A DNA stretch of 64,000 bases from Aureivirga sp. CE67 (GTDB lineage Bacteria; Bacteroidota; Bacteroidia; Flavobacteriales; Flavobacteriaceae). The notes under the pieces are model-generated. The model was not told the DNA's origin, searched no databases, and saw only the letters and a list, made by a program, of their open reading frames with translations. Positions 52,561 to 55,150 of this stretch are shown here, one piece after another. The stretch spans positions 186,001 to 250,000 of the forward strand of contig NZ_JADOTV010000002.1 in NCBI RefSeq assembly GCF_015767245.1. The letters are read 5' to 3'. Position 1 is the stretch's first letter. Every line of letters begins with the position of its first letter. A program made the position numbers and the translations under genes.

Positions 52561-53154
52561 TTGAAAAAAGCAGTTATTATCATAGTTCTGGTTTTATTAA
52601 TTGATCAAATTAGTAAGATTTGGATTAAAACGCATTTTGTGTTAGGGCAAGAAATTAGAGTGTTCGATTGGTTCCGAATTCATTTTATTGAAAATAACGG
52701 AATGGCCTGGGGAACGGAATTTGGAGGAGATAAAGGAAAATTATTCTTGACACTTTTCAGACTTGTTGCTATTACAGGAATTGGGTATTGGCTATATAGT
52801 TCAGTGAAATCAAAAGCTTCTAATTTATTAGTAGTTGCAGTAGCTCTTATTTTTGCAGGAGCTTTAGGAAATATTATTGATTCCGTTTTTTATGGAGTTA
52901 TTTTTAGCGAAAGTAATTATCATGAAGTAGCTACAATGTTTCCAGAAATGGGGTATAGACCTCTTTTTTATGGTAAAGTAGTTGATATGCTTTATTTTCC
53001 GATTTGGAAAGGAGATTTACCAAGTTGGATTCCAATTGTAGGAGGGAAACCATTTACTTTTTTCAATGCAATTTTTAATATAGCAGATACCGCAATTAGT
53101 GTAGGAGTAGGGATTTTGATTGTTTTCAGTAAGAAAGTATTCCCGAAAAAATAA
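52561..53154 (+). CDS. lspA: Lipoprotein signal peptidase, TTG start
   Basis: LspA cleaves the signal peptide of prolipoproteins after lipidation. The 197-residue protein has four membrane helices. The two catalytic Asp residues are in GALGNIIDSVFYG (about 106) and FNIADTAISVG (about 177). The start must be TTG: an in-frame TAA lies six codons upstream (52540) and the next Met is near residue 48, inside the first conserved block (ENNGMAWG). The length is larger than E. coli LspA (164) because of an insertion between the Asp blocks, as is usual in Bacteroidota. Confidence 0.94.
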   Translation: MKKAVIIIVLVLLIDQISKIWIKTHFVLGQEIRVFDWFRIHFIENNGMAWGTEFGGDKGKLFLTLFRLVAITGIGYWLYSSVKSKASNLLVVAVALIFAGALGNIIDSVFYGVIFSESNYHEVATMFPEMGYRPLFYGKVVDMLYFPIWKGDLPSWIPIVGGKPFTFFNAIFNIADTAISVGVGILIVFSKKVFPKK

Positions 53155-54391: not shown

Positions 54392-54570
54392 AAAACTTCG
54401 GATTAATCAGTCATTTATTTAAAGTTACTTAAAAATAGAAGTAGAAAAAATTAGCTTAACATAGTTTTATGTTGTGTAATTAGTTAATAAATATTAAAAA
54501 TATGTTAAAATATTAATGAAAAAATACTTTATTTGTAATTATTAATTAACCATATAAATAACTTAAAAAG

Positions 54571-55107
54571 ATGAAATTATTAAAAGGATTTATCTTAACA
54601 TTAGCCCTTGGATTTGCTGTTGTTTCTTGTAATGAAGCACTAAAAACAGATTCTAAAACAGAAACTAAAGTAGAGCAAGAGTCTAAAAAAGCTGAGACTC
54701 CAGCAGAGAAACATGGAGATCATGACGGACATGATCATGGAACTAAAGCTGATGAAACTAAATCTTCTTGTTGTACTGCTAAATGTGGTGATAACTGTTC
54801 TAAAGAAAAATGTGCAAACTGTGAGAACAAAGAAGCTTGTAAAGGAAAATGTTCTGAAAAAACGATGGCTAAGCATTGTGAAACTAAATGTAGCAAAGAT
54901 TGTACGAAAGCAGATTGTGAAAAGTGTGCAGCTAAAAAAGAAGAATGTAAAAAGAAATGTGCTGCTAAGAAAGAAATGGCAGCTAAGCACTGTGAAACTA
55001 AGTGTAGCAAAGAATGTACGAAAGCAGACTGTGAAAAGTGTGCAGCTAAAAAAGAGGAGTGCAAAAAGAAATGTGCTGCTAAAAAAGAAGCTGAGAAAAA
55101 AGCATAA
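54571..55107 (+). CDS. Cys/His-rich repeat lipoprotein, metallothionein-like
   Basis: The 178-residue protein has a lipoprotein signal with the lipidated Cys20 in AVVSCNEA. A Lys/Glu/Thr linker follows, then a short His/Asp stretch (HGDHDGHDHG, about 48-57), then a Cys/Lys region. The mature part contains 22 further Cys, nearly all spaced C-x2-C to C-x4-C. Residues 100-175 are two copies of a 38-residue unit (AKHCETKCSK..., DNA 54868-54981 and 54982-55095). Composition and spacing suggest metal binding in the periplasm or on the outer membrane. I know no named family. It is a single gene with its own terminator. Confidence 0.8.
   Translation: MKLLKGFILTLALGFAVVSCNEALKTDSKTETKVEQESKKAETPAEKHGDHDGHDHGTKADETKSSCCTAKCGDNCSKEKCANCENKEACKGKCSEKTMAKHCETKCSKDCTKADCEKCAAKKEECKKKCAAKKEMAAKHCETKCSKECTKADCEKCAAKKEECKKKCAAKKEAEKKA
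54868..55095 (+). repeat. 114-bp tandem repeat inside the Cys-rich lipoprotein gene
   Basis: Two adjacent copies of 114 bp (38 codons) differ at a few, mostly third-codon, positions. The protein units differ mainly at Asp/Glu and at the last two residues. This indicates a fairly recent duplication kept under protein-level selection. Confidence 0.88.
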
Positions 55108-55117
55108 TTATCATATA

Positions 55118-55150
55118 GAAAAAGGGATGAAAATTTTCATCCCTTTTTTA
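55118..55150. terminator. Bidirectional terminator between the Cys-rich lipoprotein and enoyl-CoA hydratase genes
   Basis: AAAAAGGGATGAAAA and its complement form a perfect palindrome centred between 55133 and 55134, with A and T runs on the outside. Confidence 0.9.

Follow-up and report, generated by a model that had tools for sequence, protein, structure and literature searches.

The HMA domain captures metal ions and hands them over in CopZ, MerP and the copper ATPases; its usual metal loop is CXXC, and zinc, cadmium and mercury are bound by such domains too. Most of the characterised bacterial metallothioneins and copper stores are cytosolic and the exported ones are few. Exported Csp copper storage proteins exist (PMC5171941, PMC12510493), and one helix of Csp3 bears CXXXC pairs that make up eight of its Cu(I) sites (PMC5171941). 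Within the Flavobacteriaceae, HMA-domain proteins have been given as putative copper chaperones in Bizionia argentinensis (PMC11213822).

The window analysed here (64,000 nucleotides of DNA from Aureivirga sp. CE67) encodes a Cys-rich lipoprotein. With the bacterial metallothioneins of the SmtA, PmtA and MymT types it shares a very high Cys content, some His and a mature part without aromatic residues, but it is larger, lipidated, predicted to be exported and built of tandem seven-Cys modules; no curated metallothionein model matched it (Pfam to E 10; NCBIfam). Like the Csp proteins (Csp1, Csp3 and gonococcal NGO1701) it is rich in CxxxC pairs of Cys, which may sit on helices; unlike these four-helix bundles it is a lipoprotein, and it has no sequence match to Csp in the PDB and, with a low-confidence model as query, no fold match. 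The HMA copper chaperones (PF00403; CopZ, MerP and the N-terminal domains of copper ATPases) are related through a clear HMA domain in a partner protein and in fused relatives, whereas in the window protein nothing matches the HMA model (PF00403), the Cys-rich tail lies outside the PF00403 family and the motif of the partner, GMTCxxGCA, is CX3C and not CXXC. Judged by sequence the protein is neither a metallothionein nor a Csp; its putative function is that of a metallothionein-like thiolate store that is lipid-anchored, modular and linked to an HMA chaperone lipoprotein.

The original prediction had assigned the protein to no named family, and this stands: the Cys module matches nothing in Pfam or NCBIfam (window protein and 15 relatives scanned), and the Cys part has no PDB match by sequence, profile or fold search. 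FAM176, FSAP and other weak Pfam matches were rejected; they fall below the cut-off and lie mostly on the signal and linker. A literature search on metallothionein, lipoprotein and HMA in Bacteroidetes or Flavobacteriaceae found the module undescribed, which is weak evidence because only openly licensed papers were covered, and the literature searched yielded no description of the role of the HMA lipoprotein.

Anatomy and conservation of the gene

The features of the gene and its surroundings are the following.

54571–55107, + strand: coding sequence of the 178-aa Cys-rich lipoprotein precursor (open reading frame; orthologue with conserved Cys; dN/dS of the Cys part ~0.10)
54571–54630, + strand: signal sequence and lipobox, residues 1–20, with lipidated Cys20 (sequence; Cys20 invariant across all 15 aligned relatives)
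54712–54741, + strand: His-rich patch HGDHDGHDHG, residues 48–57 (sequence; AHEGHDHD at the equivalent position of the congeneric orthologue)
54772–54852, + strand: module 1, degenerate 27-residue copy, residues 68–94 (profile)
54877–54960, + strand: module 2, exact seven-Cys pattern, residues 103–130 (sequence pattern)
54991–55074, + strand: module 3, exact seven-Cys pattern, residues 141–168 (sequence pattern)
54868–55095, + strand: two 114-bp direct repeats lying side by side, with 101/114 positions identical (Tandem Repeats Finder; pairwise comparison)
54514–54563, + strand: upstream block of ~50 bp common to the congeneric orthologue, probably promoter and leader (DNA alignment)
55118–55149, + strand: intrinsic terminator hairpin, conserved in the congener (fold energy; alignment)

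By inspection, the precursor has the N-terminal signal and the lipobox ending in Cys that mark a bacterial lipoprotein (VVSC, the Cys being residue 20; MKLLKGFILTLALGFAVVSC). This signal, the HGDHDGHDHG stretch and the 22 Cys of the mature part had all been predicted and are found on the 178-aa open reading frame; with Cys20 the total is 23, and the filler between them is charged Lys and Glu. The Cys had also been described as lying at regular intervals of 2–4 residues, which is right only roughly, the actual spacings ranging from 0 to 10.

The module comprises 28 residues with seven Cys, C-x3-C-x3-C-x4-C-x2-C-x6-C-x3-C, and the mature part contains this exact pattern two times; when its sequence was shuffled 200,000 times, one copy of the pattern arose in 11 cases and two copies in none. 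The protein contains nine CxxxC motifs. The claim of two 38-residue repeats encoded by adjacent 114-bp copies was confirmed (period 114, 1.9 copies, 92% matches, 54868–55089 in Tandem Repeats Finder), each copy encoding one 38-residue unit. The third, degenerate module had escaped the original prediction and was detected by profile (E 2.2e-8). The original prediction had suggested that the repeat number may vary between strains; between genera it does differ, from one to three units, and the congeneric orthologue has the same number as the window protein. Concerted evolution of the two 114-bp copies is suggested, both reading KEECKK in the window genome and KAECKK in the congener; nucleotide identities between copies (92/102 and 97/102 within genomes, 90–94/102 between genomes) are no proof of it.

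That congener (G001) is the sole other species of the genus available for comparison. Its orthologue is 76% identical to the window protein, also carries a His-rich patch and keeps all 23 Cys columns. Purifying selection on the Cys part is strong (dN 0.087, dS 0.842); for the signal and linker the corresponding values are dN 0.270 and dS 0.613. The lipoprotein gene appears to form an independent transcription unit, because the terminator hairpin (-17.9 kcal/mol, z -4.8) and the upstream block are conserved in both species; farther 5' than this block the two sequences diverge.

Directly upstream of the window gene there is a break in synteny. A gene for signal peptidase II, lspA, which serves lipoprotein processing, lies two genes upstream (52561–53154), and the break suggests that this proximity is chance. 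A simple local inversion as the event that parted this gene and the HMA gene was considered and rejected; lspA, ileS and the acyltransferase gene are not found at 659–860 kb of contig 1 of the congener.

Fused and split forms with an HMA lipoprotein

The profile search for the seven-Cys pattern that the original prediction had called for matched 15 of 400 genomes of the Flavobacteriaceae and 10 of 237 genera (E 0.01), and the full protein as query matched 10 of the 400 (E 0.001). The window's own genome was the sole match among 396 genomes sampled from the phylum and was joined by one further member of the Flavobacteriaceae among 378 sampled from the order. Given so few matches across the family, phylum and order samples, the module is a rare feature restricted to the Flavobacteriaceae at the search sensitivity used; one genus has it in four of six genomes. 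A separate related-locus search, with the whole protein as query against genome contigs, gave no match, and a scan for the pure seven-Cys DNA pattern had TGC-type simple repeats among the matches listed.

The module occurs in two architectures. The fused form, in ten genomes (G262, G003, G798, G112, G316, G301, G157, G346, G092 and G196), has it as the C-terminal tail of an HMA-domain lipoprotein whose metal loop is GMTCxxGCA (CX3C); three such proteins tested singly scored 43.1, 51.4 and 53.6 bits against the Pfam HMA model (cut-off 24.8). The split form, in six genomes (the window genome G000, G001, G413, G405, G082 and G334), has it as a separate lipoprotein that begins MKL(L/F/I)KG, and all six of these genomes also encode a tail-less HMA lipoprotein. 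The gene for the latter adjoins the module gene in G413, G405 and G334, is separated from it by one small gene in G001 and lies ~53 kb away in G082; in the window genome the distance is 83 kb (C12:324305-324691), which put the partner out of sight of the original prediction, and no metal gene adjoins the window gene. Both forms are seen within one genus, where the interval between the EamA gene and ctaA holds a fused gene in G262, G003 and G798 and two separate genes in G413. An HMA domain is present in 9 of the 15 aligned relatives.

For the HMA part the score against Pfam PF00403 is above the cut-off, and the best alignments are those to copper ATPase domains, copper chaperone domains and MerP. 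The profile of the HMA lipoprotein matched 241 of 351 genomes of the family (E 1e-6), about two thirds, a count that may include other HMA proteins. Among 29 HMA loci, an uneven sample because the best-scoring ones were chosen, the tail ranges from none (three Cys in the protein) through a short C-x3-C-x3-CC to the seven-Cys module, present once or three times.

Fusion and adjacency generally mark proteins that act together. The link through fusion and fission supports a thiolate metal store and an HMA chaperone acting outside the inner membrane, most likely on Cu(I).

A proposed extracytoplasmic metal store and its rivals

The reading that we favour, with a probability of about 0.6, is a metal store that has an HMA partner and whose metal is most likely copper. 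The gene would yield an exported, lipid-anchored polythiolate protein, probably facing the periplasm, in which tandem modules, each supplying seven thiolates, would store or buffer ions of soft metals, with Cu(I) the likeliest among them. The separate HMA lipoprotein would capture single metal ions via its CX3C loop and then hand them to the polythiolate store, the capacity of which would be fixed by the number of modules. Storage or buffering of Cu(I) is favoured because of the HMA link, the Cys on one helix face and the CxxxC pairs as in Csp3. On a helix, Cys116, 119, 126, 130, 141 and 145 would share one face (resultant 0.83, reached by 387 of 100,000 random placements). AlphaFold2 predicted helices in the Cys116–145 region with low confidence, both for the whole protein and for one module (pLDDT 54.6 and 63.6), and Foldseek with the low-confidence whole-protein model returned no solved fold at E < 0.001.

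The anchored metal buffer of the original prediction, at the surface or in the periplasm, survives in part. For an exported, lipid-anchored buffer the support is indirect but fairly strong, because relatives fuse or adjoin the same Cys module with an HMA lipoprotein; surface exposure is not supported. In Capnocytophaga the optimal surface-export signal past the lipidated Cys is C-X-K-(D/E)2 (PMC5080379), which neither the window protein (C-N-E-A-L) nor its congeneric orthologue (C-D-Q-A-P) carries. This makes surface exposure less likely, with the proviso that export signals vary by species, and for want of the signal a periplasm-facing anchor is favoured.

Several points count against a metal store: export would put 22 thiols, presumably kept reduced, in an oxidising compartment, the window gene has no metal gene beside it, AlphaFold2 confidence is low and there is no fold match. 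Against copper in particular stand the binding of zinc, cadmium and mercury by HMA domains and the CX3C loop in place of the usual CXXC.

The main rival is a zinc or cadmium store, a periplasmic metallothionein in which Cys and some His would bind divalent ions in thiolate clusters while the HMA partner handles zinc, cadmium or mercury. The His-rich patch and the mixtures of Cys and His seen in G405 and G082 fit it, the HMA part also matches MerP and ZntA-type profiles, and characterised bacterial metallothioneins include zinc binders with His ligands (PMC10612145). It would also suit G405, where the pair of HMA and Cys-rich lipoproteins adjoins hypA, hypB and a gene for a DsbD_2/TauE-like membrane protein (L018:10632-14030), a neighbourhood that suggests nickel-hydrogenase maturation genes next to the pair. 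We nevertheless regard a zinc or cadmium store as unlikely, since the HMA part scores best against copper ATPase and copper chaperone domains, the CxxxC spacing on the predicted helix would suit two-coordinate Cu(I) better than tetrahedral zinc, and the cytochrome oxidase assembly gene ctaA adjoins the module gene at six loci (L016, L017, L026, L036, L038 and L164; identified by Pfam for three of the six and by sequence likeness for the remainder).

An oxidant sink, which the original prediction had offered as an alternative, is a poorer candidate still. Cys pairs of such a disulfide-buffering lipoprotein would cycle between thiol and disulfide and so shield the envelope from oxidative stress, as might befit an exported protein rich in Cys, and the bacterial metallothionein PmtA has been tied to oxidative stress and found on the cell surface (PMC11237414); a sink, however, needs neither a seven-Cys spacing fixed across genera nor a link to HMA. 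Least probable of all is a small disulfide-rich structural protein whose conserved Cys hold the fold and bind no metal, which would accord with export and conserved Cys positions but hardly with 22 Cys amid very charged Lys/Glu filler, a mature part lacking aromatics, low-confidence predicted helices with Cys on one face and HMA fusion in relatives.

Returning to the copper store, a more specific version can be put forward tentatively, at somewhat less than even odds: that the HMA and polythiolate lipoproteins are two parts of one extracytoplasmic copper store, repeatedly fused and split in the evolution of the Flavobacteriaceae. If true, a lipid-anchored modular thiolate store with an HMA chaperone would show how the envelope of these bacteria handles copper, and the fused and split versions found in nature would be ready pairs for tests of metal transfer.

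Neighbours and tails of the HMA lipoprotein genes

At 13 of the 15 HMA loci read with their flanks, the divergent neighbour of the HMA gene encodes an EamA-family transporter (for example L014:7775-8659, L015:7678-8562 and L026:118-1005). CtaA and EamA as neighbours are no proof of copper. In both species of the genus a small conserved protein of ~160 aa that matches no Pfam family significantly is encoded 3' of the HMA lipoprotein gene (L015:9100-9582, L014:6769-7239). Many HMA lipoproteins of the Flavobacteriaceae carry the C-x3-C-x3-CC tail, which is simpler than the seven-Cys module; it is seen at L188, L189, L190, L193, L196, L197 and L200 (e.g. CKPDCKMACCEKKA).
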